Made by a program: the position numbers and the translations under genes. Of a DNA stretch of 64,000 nt, positions 795 through 6,970 are shown piece after piece. The stretch is from Natronosalvus caseinilyticus. Lineage in GTDB: Archaea > Halobacteriota > Halobacteria > Halobacteriales > Natrialbaceae. Positions within the stretch are counted from its first letter, which is position 1. The number at the start of each line of letters is the position of its first letter. The stretch spans positions 3,782,001 through 3,846,000 of the forward strand of contig NZ_CP071596.1 in the NCBI RefSeq assembly GCF_017357105.1, given 5' to 3'. The notes beneath the pieces were generated by a model. The model ran no database searches. It was not told the origin of the DNA and saw nothing but the letters and a program-made list of their open reading frames with translations.

Positions 795-967
795 ATTCCG
801 GGAACGGTCGATACGCCAGCGCCATTGGCGGAGCTGAGGGATGTGGGAACGCGATTTGCTCGCATCACCCGACCCGCACACTGTGAAGCGGACCGACGTC
901 GACGAGCCTAGGCTGCATCTGCAAGCAGCATGGTAACGCACGGCCCGCTCGAACCTCTGAGTGAGTG

Positions 968-1009: not shown

Positions 1010-1150
1010 ATGCATACACGACAACAATCGACGACCGCAGACGCAGACGGCCGGTGGAACCGTCCGCGAGCGATCGGTCGCGGTCACCGGGACCGTCCCT
1101 GGGACCGGAACCAAAGCCGGCGACGATCCGCGAGGTGGCACGGTGGCTGA
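1010..1150 (+). CDS. candidate 46-aa arginine-rich leader ORF overlapping the gvpF start
   Basis: The ATG at 1010 is preceded by GGAGGGTGAG (996-1005), the best Shine-Dalgarno of the region. The ORF ends at TGA 1148-1150, overlapping the gvpF GTG (1143) by 8 nt in another frame. The same style of overlap links all the genes of the operon. The product would be 46 residues (MHTRQQSTTADADGRW...), with many Arg, His and Trp, which is the opposite of a normal acidic halophile protein. It may be a non-functional peptide whose translation delivers ribosomes to gvpF, or only a chance ORF. No family is recognised. Confidence 0.3.
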   Translation: MHTRQQSTTADADGRWNRPRAIGRGHRDRPWDRNQSRRRSARWHGG

Positions 1151-1838
1151 CTCGAACTCGAGTTACCACTACGTGTACGGGATCGTCGCCTCGAGCGACG
1201 CCAACGTGATTTCGCTCGAGGAGGGCGAGGCAGATGACGATTCGGACCGGGAGACGCTGCCCGTAGAGGGGGCGGGCGTCGCCGGGGCGACCGAGTTGTA
1301 CCCGGTCTCCCACGGACGACTCGCCGCGCTGGCGTCGCCGATCGACGTGACCGATCCCGAGGAGACCGACGAGGACGCGAAACGTCACGACGCGGTGCTC
1401 CGCGCGCTGTTGACCGAGAACGGCGGCCGAACGATCGTTCCGATGCGATTCGGCATGGTCTTCGAGAGCGAACGCGCGCTGAAGAACGTCCTCCGGGGCG
1501 GCCGTGGCGCGTTCCGACGAACGCTTCACGACATCGACGACAGGGTCGAACTCGGCCTGAAGGTCGTTCGCGAGCAGGACGCGACCGTCGACGACGAGAC
1601 GATCGTCGAGCGGGTGAGCGACGAACTCGAGCCACTGGCCACGAGTAGCGTCGACAGTGGCGAGTTCAGCGATCGGCTAGTGCTCAACCGCTCCTATCTC
1701 GTCGACCGGTCGGACCGCGAGGCGTTCGACACCGCCGTTGGCGAACTCGAGGCCGACCTCGAGGACGTGATGATCCGGTACTCGGGGCCGTTCGCACCGT
1801 ACAGTTTCGTCGACGTCAAGATCGGGGCCCAGCGATGA
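1143..1838 (+). CDS. gvpF: gas vesicle protein GvpF
   Basis: 231 aa with a GTG start. GAGGTGG (1132-1138) is a nearby Shine-Dalgarno, and no ATG occurs upstream in frame. It belongs to the GvpF/GvpL family, which in haloarchaea binds GvpA and the other accessory proteins at the start of gas vesicle assembly. Diagnostic features are YHYVYGIVAS near the N-terminus, the central VPMRFGMVF, and the C-terminal YSGPFAPYSFVDVKI. GvpL (4713-5786) ends with the same G-P-x-x-PYSF motif. It is the first gene of the overlapping gvpFGHIJKLM run. An assembly role is family knowledge; vesicles cannot be concluded because gvpA is not seen here. Confidence 0.93.
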   Translation: MADSNSSYHYVYGIVASSDANVISLEEGEADDDSDRETLPVEGAGVAGATELYPVSHGRLAALASPIDVTDPEETDEDAKRHDAVLRALLTENGGRTIVPMRFGMVFESERALKNVLRGGRGAFRRTLHDIDDRVELGLKVVREQDATVDDETIVERVSDELEPLATSSVDSGEFSDRLVLNRSYLVDRSDREAFDTAVGELEADLEDVMIRYSGPFAPYSFVDVKIGAQR

Positions 1839-2101
1839 TGGCGATCATCGTCGACGACCTGCTCGTCCGCCCGTTCGTCGGCCTCGTCAACACGCTGCAC
1901 ACGATGGCGATCGACGAACTGTACGACATCGAAGCCCTCGAGGACGAGCGCAAGGAAAACCGGCTCCTCTACGAACTCGGCGAACGGTCGAAAGCCGAGT
2001 ACGAGGAGCGCAAAGCCGAGATCGAAGACGAACTCGAGCTCGCTCGCGAGGTCCACGAGGAACTCACGAGCGGACGCGTGGAGGTCCGAACCAATGACTG
2101 A
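1835..2101 (+). CDS. gvpG: gas vesicle protein GvpG
   Basis: 88 aa, overlapping gvpF by 4 nt (or starting at the adjacent ATG 1838). It is a short, largely helical, charged protein with an N-terminal hydrophobic patch (IIVDDLLVRPFVGLVNTL) followed by a coiled-coil-like segment (residues about 33-75, rich in Glu, Lys and Arg), as in the GvpG family. GvpG is an accessory protein that interacts with GvpL and GvpF during assembly. Its position between gvpF and gvpH matches canonical haloarchaeal order. Confidence 0.9.
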   Translation: MMAIIVDDLLVRPFVGLVNTLHTMAIDELYDIEALEDERKENRLLYELGERSKAEYEERKAEIEDELELAREVHEELTSGRVEVRTND

Positions 2102-3014
2102 CGAACCACCAGACCCCCCAGATTCACCCGACGATCCGTCCGAAGAACCGCCCGATGAACCACCCGAGGAATCGTCCGCGACGCCACCGAACGACGGCGA
2201 CGACGATTCGGTGTCCGACTCGAGCCAGCCGTCCGACCAGGAGTCGACCGCGGGAGACGACGAAGTCGACGAGGTCAACGAAGTCGACGAAATGGACGCG
2301 AGCGAGGACGCGACGGAGGACCGATTCGGCGAATCCAGCGAATCCGACGAACCCGACAAATCCGGCAGTCAACCGAACGAGCGAGCGGATCGGTCCGACG
2401 AACGCGAGCACGAACACGAACACGGAGACGAGCGGCGTCCGTCGTCTCCGTCCTCCCGTCGGCACCACTCGGAGTCCGGATTCGAGGCCAGGCCGGGCGG
2501 ACAGCTCCTGTCGCGGCTCTTTCGGCTCCTCGAGTCGGGCGCCGAGAGCGGGACCGGATTTGGCGGCGCGTACGGAAACGCGCCCTTCGGCGACTCGAGC
2601 CGACGCGACGACGGTAGCCGTTTCAGGTTCGACACCGACGTCGACCTGACATTCAGCTCGATCGAACCCACCGGGGACGATGGCCGTCGAAATCGGCGCC
2701 ACAGCGTGCACGACGAGCGCTCGTCCGAACGCGCTCGACGCCACGCGACCCCGTCGATCGACGTCGCGAAGCGACGGTATGGGACGGAACTCGAGGTCGT
2801 CGCCGACGTCTCGTCAGTCGGGGAGGATCGGGTCCGCGTCGGGTTCGAGGACGACGACCTCGTGCTGGCCGACGACGACGATAACGAACTGTCACGCGTG
2901 AGCCTGCCGTGGCCGGAGACGGAGGCCGACGCGACGGTGAACAACGGCATCCTCACGGTTCGGGTGACCCGGGTAGATGCCCCTGGCTCCACGGATGGTG
3001 ATATCCATGAATGA
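2094..3014 (+). CDS. gvpH: gas vesicle protein GvpH (Hsp20-like C-terminal domain)
   Basis: 306 aa, overlapping gvpG by 8 nt, with Shine-Dalgarno GGAGGTC at 2080-2086. Residues 1 to about 160 are a low-complexity acidic tail rich in Pro, Asp, Glu and Ser. The middle is Arg/Ser-rich. Residues about 210-300 form a beta-rich region (VAKRRYGTELEVVADV, VRVGFEDDDLVLAD, NNGILTVRVTRVD) like the alpha-crystallin/Hsp20 fold of haloarchaeal GvpH, which is thought to act chaperone-like with GvpI. The protein is longer than I expect for GvpH because of the disordered N-terminus. Confidence 0.87.
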   Translation: MTDEPPDPPDSPDDPSEEPPDEPPEESSATPPNDGDDDSVSDSSQPSDQESTAGDDEVDEVNEVDEMDASEDATEDRFGESSESDEPDKSGSQPNERADRSDEREHEHEHGDERRPSSPSSRRHHSESGFEARPGGQLLSRLFRLLESGAESGTGFGGAYGNAPFGDSSRRDDGSRFRFDTDVDLTFSSIEPTGDDGRRNRRHSVHDERSSERARRHATPSIDVAKRRYGTELEVVADVSSVGEDRVRVGFEDDDLVLADDDDNELSRVSLPWPETEADATVNNGILTVRVTRVDAPGSTDGDIHE

Positions 3015-3939
3015 GACGAGCGAAACGAGCGAAACGAGCGAAGTGGACGACGGAATCGACATCGAGGCCGACGACCTCGAGTCGATCGTCGAAACCGGCG
3101 CCGCCGCACTCGACGCGCTCGAGGACGACCTCGCCGACGTCGACGCACTCGGCGAACTCGACGACGATGCACTCGAGAACGTGCGCCAGAATCTCGACGC
3201 GCTCGAGGACGTGACGACGGCCCTCGCCGAGTTCGTCGAAGCGATGGATCTCGAAGACCTGGCCGAGGTCGTCGAACCAGGCGAGTTGCTCGACGCAATC
3301 GAAATGGGCGAGATCCCGGATGCGCTCCAGTCGGGAGAGATCACGGACGCGGTCAACGTGACCGCCCTGCTTGACGCGCTCAATCTGCTCGAGGCGTGGG
3401 GCGCGACCGACGTGACCGACGTGCTCAGGGAGGGCGACGACCTCACCGATACGCTCGAGGACGTGAGCGAGGAGGATTCGGCCGTCGGCGCGGCGGCGTC
3501 GACGGTAACGGACGACGATGACGACGATGACGACCATGACGACGACTTCCTCGAGGACGAACTCGACGTCAGCGCCGAGGAAACCATGGACGCCCTCGAC
3601 GTCGACGTGCTCGAGGACCCCGAGTACGTACAGGTCTCGATCCAGCAAGCTGCGATGGAGGCCATCGACGGCGTCCGCTGGACGCTGCTCGAGACCCACG
3701 AGCAGTTCGAGAAGCTCTACGAGTTCAACCGGGAGCGGATGCGCCGCCAGGACCGCGGGACCACGTCCAGGAACCCGACCGCGGCGTCGACCATGCCGGT
3801 CGGCCGGGCGGACCTCGGGAGCGACAGCCGCTACTCGACGGTCCCCCAGCAGGTCAAGCTGTCGACGGCGCCTGCCCGGCGGCGGATCTACGGCAGACGA
3901 TTTGAGATTGAACGGGAACGCCAGCGGGGTGAGCGCTGA
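3007..3939 (+). CDS. gvpI: gas vesicle protein GvpI with a long acidic N-terminal extension
   Basis: 310 aa from the ATG at 3007, which overlaps gvpH by 8 nt and follows a GGTGAT Shine-Dalgarno-like sequence. Only the last ~60 residues look like GvpI: SRNPTAASTMPVGR, the STVP and STAP repeats and RRRIYGRRF. GvpI is normally a small basic protein of about 150 aa. Here about 200 residues precede this end. They contain helical Leu/Glu/Asp repeats (residues ~20-165), a poly-Asp run (~170-185) and a helix with QQAAMEAIDGVRWTLLETHE just before the basic tail. The identification rests on that tail and on the position between gvpH and gvpJ. Alternatively it is a fusion of an unknown acidic domain with GvpI. 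Confidence 0.75.
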   Translation: MNETSETSETSEVDDGIDIEADDLESIVETGAAALDALEDDLADVDALGELDDDALENVRQNLDALEDVTTALAEFVEAMDLEDLAEVVEPGELLDAIEMGEIPDALQSGEITDAVNVTALLDALNLLEAWGATDVTDVLREGDDLTDTLEDVSEEDSAVGAAASTVTDDDDDDDDHDDDFLEDELDVSAEETMDALDVDVLEDPEYVQVSIQQAAMEAIDGVRWTLLETHEQFEKLYEFNRERMRRQDRGTTSRNPTAASTMPVGRADLGSDSRYSTVPQQVKLSTAPARRRIYGRRFEIERERQRGER

Positions 3940-4379
3940 TGGTCGACGCCGTTCAGCCAAGCCGTCAGCAGGCCGATCTCGCGGACGTCGTCGAGATGCT
4001 GCTCGATAAGGGGATCGTGATCAACGCCGACATCGCCGTCTCCATCGGCGATACCCAGCTACTCGGCATCCAGCTTCGGGCCGCCATCGCCTCCTTCGAG
4101 ACGGCCGCGAAGTACGGCCTCGAGTTCCCCGAGGGGACGGACATGCGCCGCGTGGCGGAGGCCGCGGGCGAACCGGAACTCGCGGAGGAGGACCGGCGGC
4201 TGATTCCGCCCGTCGCACCAGTCCACGGCGTGAACGTAACTGGCGAGGACGACCAGATTGAGCGTTCGGACGCGGACGACTCGAGTGGGGCGGACGCTGA
4301 CGACGAAGAGGAGAGCGAAGACGAAACCAAGGGCGAGGCCGAAGCCGAAGCCGAGACCGACGGAGGCGAGACCACGTGA
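3939..4379 (+). CDS. gvpJ: gas vesicle protein GvpJ (GvpA-family minor structural protein)
   Basis: 146 aa; its ATG shares one base with the gvpI stop. Residues ~12-75 form the GvpA fold ([44 protein letters not shown]): helix, two beta strands, helix. It is followed by a ~70-residue acidic tail (Asp/Glu/Ala/Ser) absent from GvpA itself. GvpJ is a minor GvpA-like subunit needed at nucleation or at the conical tips. The sequence differs from main GvpA proteins, which are near-invariant, and the gene sits in the gvpJ slot. It is therefore unlikely to be the principal shell protein. Confidence 0.9.
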
Positions 4380-4723
4380 CCACGATCGACGTCGGCGAGG
4401 AGGGCAACGCGCGCCAGGGACTGATGACCCTCGTCATCACCGTCGTGGAACTCCTCGTCGAAGCGCTCGAGCGGGAGGCGATCCGGCGGATGGAGTCCCC
4501 GGATCTCACCGACGAAGAAATCGACCGGCTGGGGCGACAACTCGCGTCCATCGAGGCCGAACTCGAGCAACTCAAAGCCGACGAGGGGATCGAGGAGGGC
4601 GTCGACGACCTCCGAAACGACCTCGACGGCCTGGTCAGCGACGCGATCAGGCAACTCGAGGGCGATCCGACGAACGTCGAACCGGGCCACGCCATCCTTG
4701 GAGGTGACGACGATGGGGCGTGA
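4376..4723 (+). CDS. gvpK: gas vesicle protein GvpK
   Basis: 115 aa with a GTG start at 4376, overlapping gvpJ by 4 nt. It is a compact all-helical protein: [25 protein letters not shown], followed by [26 protein letters not shown], which is the core signature of GvpK. It is an accessory assembly protein of unknown biochemical role. A GTG start is consistent with translational coupling to gvpJ. Confidence 0.92.
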
Positions 4724-5786
4724 ACAGCGCGAAACCACGGCTCAGGAACGAGAGGCGAACCGCGACGACCCGGCGGGTCGCGACGACGAACCCGTTCCGG
4801 ACGCCGACGAAACCCCCGACTTCGACGACGGGCGCTACGTCTACTGCGTCGTCACGCTCGAGGGCGGCGAGGCCGACCTGGACGTCGACGGAATCGACGA
4901 CGAACCCGTGTCGGTCGTCGCGCTCGATCGCGGAGACGGGGGCGGGGGCGGGGACGAGGACGGGAACGCGACCCTCGCTGCAGTCGTTCACGCCTGTGAC
5001 TCGCTGTACGATTCGGCCGACCTCGCGCAGGTCAAACGGTGGCTGGTCCGCCACCAGACGGTCATCGACCGGGCGAGCCAGCAGTTTGGCACGCCGCTGC
5101 CCTTCCAGTTCGACACCATCGTCCGGGGCGACGACGACGCCGTCCGCGGGTGGCTCGCCGACCAGCGGGCCCCGCTCGAGGCGGCGCTCGCGGATCTCGC
5201 CGGCCACGCGGAGTACCGGATCGAGGTCGTCGAGACCGATCCGCCGGACGAGGAGACGCTAATCGAGCGCAACGACGACCTCGCGTCGCTGGCCGAAGAG
5301 CGGGAGGAGGCCTCGGAGGGACGGGCGTTCCTCCTCGAGAAGCAGTTCGACCAGCGGATCAGGGACCTTCGGCGCGACCGACGAGCGTCGATTCGGGAGT
5401 CCCTGCGACAGTCGCTCGAGTCGTGTGCGCGGGAGGTGCAGGTGCTCGAGCGCCAGCCGTCGGTGAGTCTCTCTAGCGCTTCTAGCGGTTCCAGCGGTTC
5501 CGGCGGGGCGGGAAAACCGACTGACGGCACCCGGCTCTGCCGGCTGACCGTCCTCGCCCGGGAGAGCGAAGAGGAGACGATCGGTTCGGTACTCGACGAC
5601 GTCGCCGAGAAACCGGGGCTCGAGGTCCGGTTCACCGGGCCGTGGCCGCCGTACTCGTTCGCGCCTACGCTCGGGGAGGAGACGGACGCTGGCGCGAGCG
5701 GTGGTCGGCCTGGGAGCACGGAGACGAGGACGCGACCCGAGACGGAAACGGAAACGGAAACCCAGACGGGTGATCGCCAGCGATGA
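4713..5786 (+). CDS. gvpL: gas vesicle protein GvpL (GvpF/GvpL family)
   Basis: 357 aa. I chose ATG 4713 because GGAGGTGA (4700-4707) lies just upstream; a TTG at 4698 is in frame but overlaps that site. It overlaps gvpK by 11 nt. An acidic N-terminus (1 to ~40) precedes the GvpF/L domain: [19 protein letters not shown], a helical [16 protein letters not shown] segment and the end motif [12 protein letters not shown]. The C-terminal ~30 residues are a low-complexity Glu-Thr repeat encoded by a GAAACG hexamer repeat. In haloarchaea GvpL acts as a platform that binds several other Gvp proteins. Confidence 0.92.
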
Positions 5787-6175
5787 AACCCGACCGAGAC
5801 GACGACGCACTGGTCGACGTCCTCGACGTGCTCCTGCGCGACGGCGCGGTCGTGCGCGCCGACGTGATCGTCTCCGTCGCGGAGATTCCGCTCGTGGGCA
5901 TCAAACTGTCCGCCGCGATCGCCGGCATGGAGACGATGACCGACTACGGGCTCTTCGAGGACTGGGACACGACGCGGCGCGCTCGAGCGCTCGAGCGCCG
6001 TCAGTACGGTCATCGGCGTGGAGGCGACGACCGCGAGGTCGACGCGGACGAGGCCCGCGAACTCCAGGATCACCCCACGATGCGCCCGCAGGGGGAACCG
6101 CGGCGATGGACGCCGGCGCCGGAGGACGAGCGAGAGCGTGAACGTCCGCAGCCATCCACCGTCTCCGAGGAGTGA
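5783..6175 (+). CDS. gvpM: gas vesicle protein GvpM (GvpA-family)
   Basis: 130 aa, overlapping gvpL by 4 nt (ATGA). Residues ~8-60 are GvpA-like (LVDVLDVLLRDGAVVRADVIVSV, LVGIKLSAAIAGMETMTDYGLF), followed by an Arg/Glu-rich polar tail. GvpM is a minor, aggregation-prone GvpA paralogue required for assembly in Halobacterium. It is the last gene of the operon, and the next gene (6277-6735) is convergent. Confidence 0.9.
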   Translation: MKPDRDDDALVDVLDVLLRDGAVVRADVIVSVAEIPLVGIKLSAAIAGMETMTDYGLFEDWDTTRRARALERRQYGHRRGGDDREVDADEARELQDHPTMRPQGEPRRWTPAPEDERERERPQPSTVSEE

Positions 6176-6276: not shown

Positions 6277-6735
6277 CTAGTCGTCCGCGAACTCGCGCTT
6301 GAGCGAGAGGACGGTTCGGGAGAACGAGCACACGAGGTCGTCGTCCTGGTTGAAAACCTCGACGTTCATCGTGACGATGCCGCGCTCGCCGTCGCTGGTC
6401 TCTCGTTTGTCGGTCACCGTCGACTGGACGCGGATCGTGTCCCCGTGGAACACCGGCGTCGGGTGCTCGACGTCGTCGTAGCTCAGGTTCGCGACGATCG
6501 TCCCGTCCGTCGTCTCGGGAATCGAGATGCCGACCGCCAGCGCCATCGTGTAGATGCCGTTGACCAGTCGTTCGCCGAACTGGGTCTCCGCAGCGAAGGT
6601 TTCGTCGAGGTGCAACGGCTGCTGGTTCATCGTCATATCGCAGAACCGCTGGTTGTCGCCCTCGGAAATCGTCCGCCGGCGCTCGTGTTCGATGGTCTCG
6701 CCCACCTCGAACTCCTCGTAGTACAGGCCAGTCAT
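6277..6735 (-). CDS. MaoC-family (hotdog) dehydratase
   Basis: 152 aa. The start at 6735 (MTGLYYEEFEVGE) was chosen because a TATA box (6761-6766) lies 28 nt upstream; the longer open frame to 6843 is rejected. It is a single hotdog domain with the MaoC hydratase signature: SEGDNQRFCDMTMNQQPLHLDE holds the catalytic Asp and His positions (D..N..PLH) and FGERLVNGIYTMALAVG follows. Such proteins hydrate or dehydrate enoyl-CoA or mesaconyl-CoA-type esters. The neighbours (glutamate dehydrogenases, CoA-ester lyase, methylmalonyl-CoA mutase) suggest C4/C5 acyl-CoA metabolism. The known haloarchaeal mesaconyl-CoA hydratase is, to my knowledge, a longer protein, so the exact substrate is uncertain. 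Confidence 0.82.
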   Translation of the reverse strand: MTGLYYEEFEVGETIEHERRRTISEGDNQRFCDMTMNQQPLHLDETFAAETQFGERLVNGIYTMALAVGISIPETTDGTIVANLSYDDVEHPTPVFHGDTIRVQSTVTDKRETSDGERGIVTMNVEVFNQDDDLVCSFSRTVLSLKREFADD

Positions 6736-6759
6736 CGTCTCGAGCGTCGACGGGGGCGA

Positions 6760-6767
6760 GTAAAATG
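6760..6767 (-). promoter_or_regulatory. TATA box of the MaoC gene
   Basis: On the minus strand it reads CATTTTAC, centred about 28 nt before the ATG at 6735; leaderless transcription is implied. Confidence 0.55.
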
Positions 6768-6970
6768 TCACCGATCGATCCCTGGTCGACACCGTGGCCG
6801 TAATCGGGGTGCAAGTATTGCCCAATCCAGGGAGTAATAGCAAGGATTAAGCGTCGGCCTCGGGAAATCCGAACGAATGCGTCGACGCACCCGTCCGCTC
6901 TCGACGGGGCCGTCGACGGGTTGGTCCAGACACCGTCCGCGACCGGACCGTGTCCGTTTCCAGAAATACC

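Follow-up and report, generated by a model that had tools for sequence, protein, structure and literature searches.

The gas-vesicle (vac) regions closest to the locus described here are those of other Natrialbaceae (Natrialba, Natrinema, Natronococcus and Halopiger) and the p-vac region of Halobacterium salinarum. The latter is contiguous and consists of gvpACNO and gvpDEFGHIJKLM. Eight gvp genes, i.e., all except gvpC, gvpD, gvpE, gvpH, gvpI and gvpN, are essential in Haloferax volcanii transformants, according to the portion of PMC7688916 that cites Offner (2000). Several Natrialbaceae have been reported without gvpC and gvpDE, and several gvp-bearing members of the family have been reported as Vac- (PMC4390858); thus, expression of the gvp genes in such species may require special conditions.

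The window, i.e., the whole 64,000-nucleotide stretch of the Natronosalvus caseinilyticus chromosome that was analysed, carries a gvpF-M operon, whose structural counterpart lies far to its left. The two loci share with the Natrialbaceae vac regions the same eleven genes in the same order inside each operon, a gvpO that is usually near MutS, the lack of gvpDE between gvpA and gvpF, and the same sequence box upstream of gvpA and gvpF; however, the operons are adjacent and divergent in those regions and 125 kb apart here. Relative to p-vac, the order of gvpFGHIJKLM and that of gvpA, gvpN and gvpO are the same, whereas gvpC was not found, gvpE was matched only by PadR-domain relatives, neither half has gvpD nearby, and the halves are apart. 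Very probably, an ordinary haloarchaeal vac region was broken in two by a rearrangement of the chromosome in an ancestor of this Natronosalvus lineage, and this gvpF-M operon is its accessory part.

The gvpF-M operon

Eight ORFs on the plus strand, spanning 1143-6175 of the window, form an intact operon (Table 1), whose junctions overlap, from gvpF to gvpM, by 4, 8, 8, 1, 4, 11 and 4 nt if gvpL is taken to start at 4713. The canonical order of the eight accessory genes and the overlaps of 1-11 nt claimed in the first-pass annotation are borne out by these ORFs and junction lengths, and its placement of the mutase on the left and MaoC on the right agrees with the gene calls in the window. The genes were identified from family-model matches judged against curated cut-offs, which six of the eight (F, G, J, K, L and M) exceed, the GvpF/GvpL family PF06386 being among the models matched. 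The identities of gvpH and gvpI are supported by their position and by tblastn, which found homologues in the equivalent place in other Natrialbaceae clusters. Their products (306 and 310 aa; window 2094-3939) are much longer than the H. salinarum counterparts, for which masses of 19.8 and 15.8 kDa are given (PMC7688916), and contain long acidic stretches. On neither flank of the operon were gvpA, gvpN or gvpO found.

Table 1. Features of the two gvp loci and their flanks (window positions, or chromosomal positions where prefixed by C1)
Feature	Position	Strand	Remarks
gvpA	C1:3658039-3658326	minus	PF00741 match; 95 aa; resembles solved GvpA shells
gvp box, gvpA copy	C1:3658367-3658380		before gvpA; exact GCTTGCANNTGCAG match
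mutase gene	start at 825	minus	left flank; adjoins gvpF
gvp box GCTTGCAGATGCAG	913..926 (C1:3782913-3782926)	minus	217 bp before gvpF start; one of two exact GCTTGCANNTGCAG matches
gvpF	1143..1838	+	PF06386, E=1e-42; start = C1:3783143
gvpG	1835..2101	+	PF05120 and NF045779 over cut-off
gvpH	2094..3014	+	C-terminal part Hsp20-like (weak match, E=4e-5, under the cut-off); N-terminal extension long and acidic
gvpI	3007..3939	+	310 aa; no family match; homologues in equivalent place in other clusters
gvpJ	3939..4379	+	NF046090, E=8e-45; PF00741
gvpK	4376..4723	+	PF05121, E=2e-24
gvpL	4713..5786	+	NF045778, E=4e-103; alternative TTG start at 4698 possible
gvpM	5783..6175	+	NF046091, E=2e-37
MaoC	6277-6843	minus	right flank

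The distant gvpA-gvpN-gvpO locus

A whole-genome search with the gas-vesicle Pfam model identified three places, namely gvpJ and gvpM of the window and C1:3658177-3658293 on the minus strand. The 95-aa protein of this distant locus matches the solved GvpA shell proteins 7R1C and 8GBS, and GvpO was located at C1:3656333 in the whole-genome search. The gvpA-gvpN-gvpO genes occupy C1:3,656,315-3,658,326, on the same chromosome and to the left of gvpF-M, in a stretch (L035) that reads MutS, gvpO, gvpN and gvpA, in this order, on the minus strand throughout. The two operons are still divergent, pointing apart as in adjacent clusters, and their starts (gvpA at C1:3658326 and gvpF at C1:3783143) are 124,817 bp apart. 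The presence of gvpA-gvpN-gvpO at this distance on the same chromosome shows that the vac region is split and that gvpF-M is no vesicle-independent module. The first-pass annotation had called gvpA, gvpC, gvpN and gvpO missing, which holds for gvpA, gvpN and gvpO on both flanks and fails genome-wide; of its two readings, a gvpACNO set elsewhere in the genome is what the search supports for gvpA, gvpN and gvpO (gvpC not found), and a vesicle-independent module building a different GvpA-fold assembly does not survive the finding of these genes on the chromosome. The structural and accessory operons lie 124.8 kb apart here; adjacency of the two is a common feature of vac systems, not an obligatory one.

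The product of gvpO (L035:8315-8917) carries an N-terminal Cys/His motif of DUF5763 (PF19067, E=7.5e-13), and a DUF5763-like stretch also occurs between gvpJ and gvpK in L040 (from the congener G003) and L075.

Between them, the two loci hold, by family or homology, the complete set of eight genes (A, O, F, G, J, K, L and M) that H. volcanii transformants need for vesicles, along with the non-essential gvpN, gvpH and gvpI. The H. salinarum GvpC query had no match in this genome or in the congeners G002 and G007, and matched in a control genome; gvpC is among the non-essential genes in the cited portion of PMC7688916. No gvpD match was found in the 198 kb spanning both halves, where positive controls matched. 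A gvpE query retrieved PadR-domain relatives only, the best at 44% over residues 77-174. A PadR-type protein at C1:942201-942494, also present in G007, shares 44% identity with the C-terminal domain of GvpE from H. salinarum; it was rejected as a clear GvpE-type regulator, this level of identity being found here and in G007 and not in G002, and it may be kept as a weak candidate regulator.

Distribution among relatives and path of the split

Among the genomes compared, G000 denotes this N. caseinilyticus genome and G001-G007 denote its congeners. The canonical Natrialbaceae cluster has MutS, gvpO, gvpN and gvpA reading one way and gvpF to gvpM reading the other, and only a few kb separate gvpA from gvpJ in the other Natrialbaceae genera examined that have a full gvp set. 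Within Natronosalvus, the halves are split by ~127 kb in G002, ~195 kb in G003 and ~50 kb in G007, and they lie on different contigs in G006. G004 and G005 carry an adjacent cluster of another lineage, without detectable gvpN, and the genome search of G001 found no gvp genes. A tree built from seven concatenated Gvp proteins groups the split genes of G000, G002, G003, G006 and G007 in one clade (ultrafast bootstrap 100) and places those of G004 and G005 apart from it. One ancestral split, subsequently inherited, would be the simplest reading for the five split genomes. The open-licence literature searched contained no account of a vac region split in this way in haloarchaea.

The junctions indicate how the split may have arisen. 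MutS adjoins gvpO in more than 20 examined Natrialbaceae clusters and does so here; thus, the F-M side is the half whose neighbourhood changed. The junction of the mutase gene with gvpF is common to G000, G002, G003 and G007, and that of gvpA with a helicase gene is common to G000, G002 and G007. In G000, the mutase and helicase genes flank the 120-kb segment between gvpA and gvpF, and in G004 they are directly adjacent (C6:28817-32731), which represents the reciprocal junction; this adjacency was not seen in G001, G005, G008 or G016. Recombination between the gvpA-gvpF and mutase-helicase intergenic regions would give this pattern as its expected outcome. Neither transposition of F-M alone nor a single inversion fits the junctions, and a tree of the mutase and helicase gives weak support (55-58) for the placing of G003 and G004.

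Several other arrangements were observed in the family. Extra gvpA-like genes, ~85% identical to the gvpA of the same genome, occur in G002 (C1:1302114-1302230, L048) and G007 (C1:2002474-2002590, L049), with no other gvp gene within the surrounding 20 kb. In Halostagnicola sp. A-GB9-2 (L067), an F-M operon with gvpF at 6059 has no gvpA, gvpN or gvpO in the 6 kb upstream that were examined, which is possibly a second, independent split. gvpA and gvpO adjoin without detectable gvpN in L045, L046, L087, L088, L089 and others. The chromosomal and plasmid loci of Natronorubrum bangense (L052 and L053) have an identical gvp match pattern and positions, and this cluster looks duplicated or misassembled.

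The shared upstream box

Comparison of the two upstream regions revealed the same sequence before both operons. The 4.2-Mb genome of G000 contains just two exact matches to GCTTGCANNTGCAG, one preceding gvpA and the other gvpF. The pattern was derived from these two sites, and the box is defined from the promoters that it describes; the conservation of the pattern in relatives is an independent observation. In most gvpA-gvpF intergenic regions of the adjacent type in Natrialbaceae, the box GCTTGCAGNNGCAG is found twice. With up to one mismatch allowed, CTTGCANNNGCAG has 70 matches in these regions of 41 adjacent-type loci; every one of the 70 is in the gvpA sense, and 32 of the 41 loci have at least two copies. 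Shuffled regions averaged 0.018 matches, two being present in none of the 820; this comparison overstates the certainty of the enrichment, since related loci are non-independent samples. In adjacent-type loci, one copy begins 48-60 bp ahead of the gvpA start, and the other lies on the gvpF side, at a distance that varies. A position and an orientation this constant are nevertheless hard to explain if the enrichment were not real.

Among the congeners, G002 and G003 have exactly two exact copies each, one per half. G007 has an exact gvpF box, a gvpA box with one mismatch and one other site, whereas G006 retains the gvpA copy, its gvpF contig being cut; the genome of G001, which is without gvp genes, has none. 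After the split, each half retained one copy. The gvpA box of G000 forms part of the inverted repeat GGCTTG-N11-CAAGCC. Four single-mismatch sites elsewhere in G000 follow no consistent pattern, two of them (253457 and 1303763) lying inside predicted ORFs or at an ORF start.

If the transcript has little or no leader, the gvpA box would stand where an archaeal activator might be expected to bind, immediately in front of the promoter core. As far as the literature was searched, the box is a promoter element without earlier description. Such a rare shared sequence suggests that the two halves are still switched on together, and its presence at both points to a shared trans-acting regulator in place of GvpDE. 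We lean slightly towards the view that, in Natrialbaceae, a putative dedicated DNA-binding regulator replaces GvpDE and acts via GCTTGCAGNNGCAG, co-regulating distant operons in trans. This putative regulator would bind the box and thereby switch the two operons in concert. Assembly would take its usual path, with GvpF-M acting early to nucleate and chaperone it and with a shell formed by GvpA from the distant locus.

Weighing the alternatives

The absence of gvpA from both flanks could be read as a sign that the F-M operon is a stand-alone module, in which GvpJ and GvpM are assembled into another kind of GvpA-fold structure. This is very improbable, since gvpA, gvpN and gvpO are present and conserved and have a box in common with gvpF-M, and since all congeners in which the native F-M half was found have gvpA as well. 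The distance between the halves could also be apparent only, through an error of assembly; however, the independent assemblies of G002 and G007 show both the gvpA-helicase and the mutase-gvpF junctions and G003 shows the latter, leaving this account a negligible probability.

A decaying remnant that makes no vesicles is improbable as well. Loss does occur, as in G022, which keeps only a gvpJ/gvpM remnant beside MutS, and related species with complete clusters have been reported as Vac- (PMC4390858). Nevertheless, all eleven gvp reading frames are intact in G000, and the box is retained in both halves of several species. In comparisons of G000 with G002, G007 and G003, dN/dS ranges from 0.02 to 0.06 for gvpA and from 0.06 to 0.40 across the ten remaining gvp genes, within or close to the range of the neighbouring housekeeping genes (0.09-0.23 for MutS, helicase and mutase). 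Judged by these ratios, all eleven genes are under purifying selection, and both halves are being kept. The G022 remnant itself (L050, 9114-9700) consists of one 251-aa frame and is a decayed cluster at the usual site.

Implications

What is new here is the split vac region, as a variant of a known system, together with the box. The split constitutes a natural experiment, in which structural and accessory vac operons need not adjoin and can remain apart across speciation, both under selection. The shared box offers a way into a question left by PMC4390858, namely whether and by what means Natrialbaceae clusters that lack GvpDE are expressed, and makes the regulation of such clusters testable.
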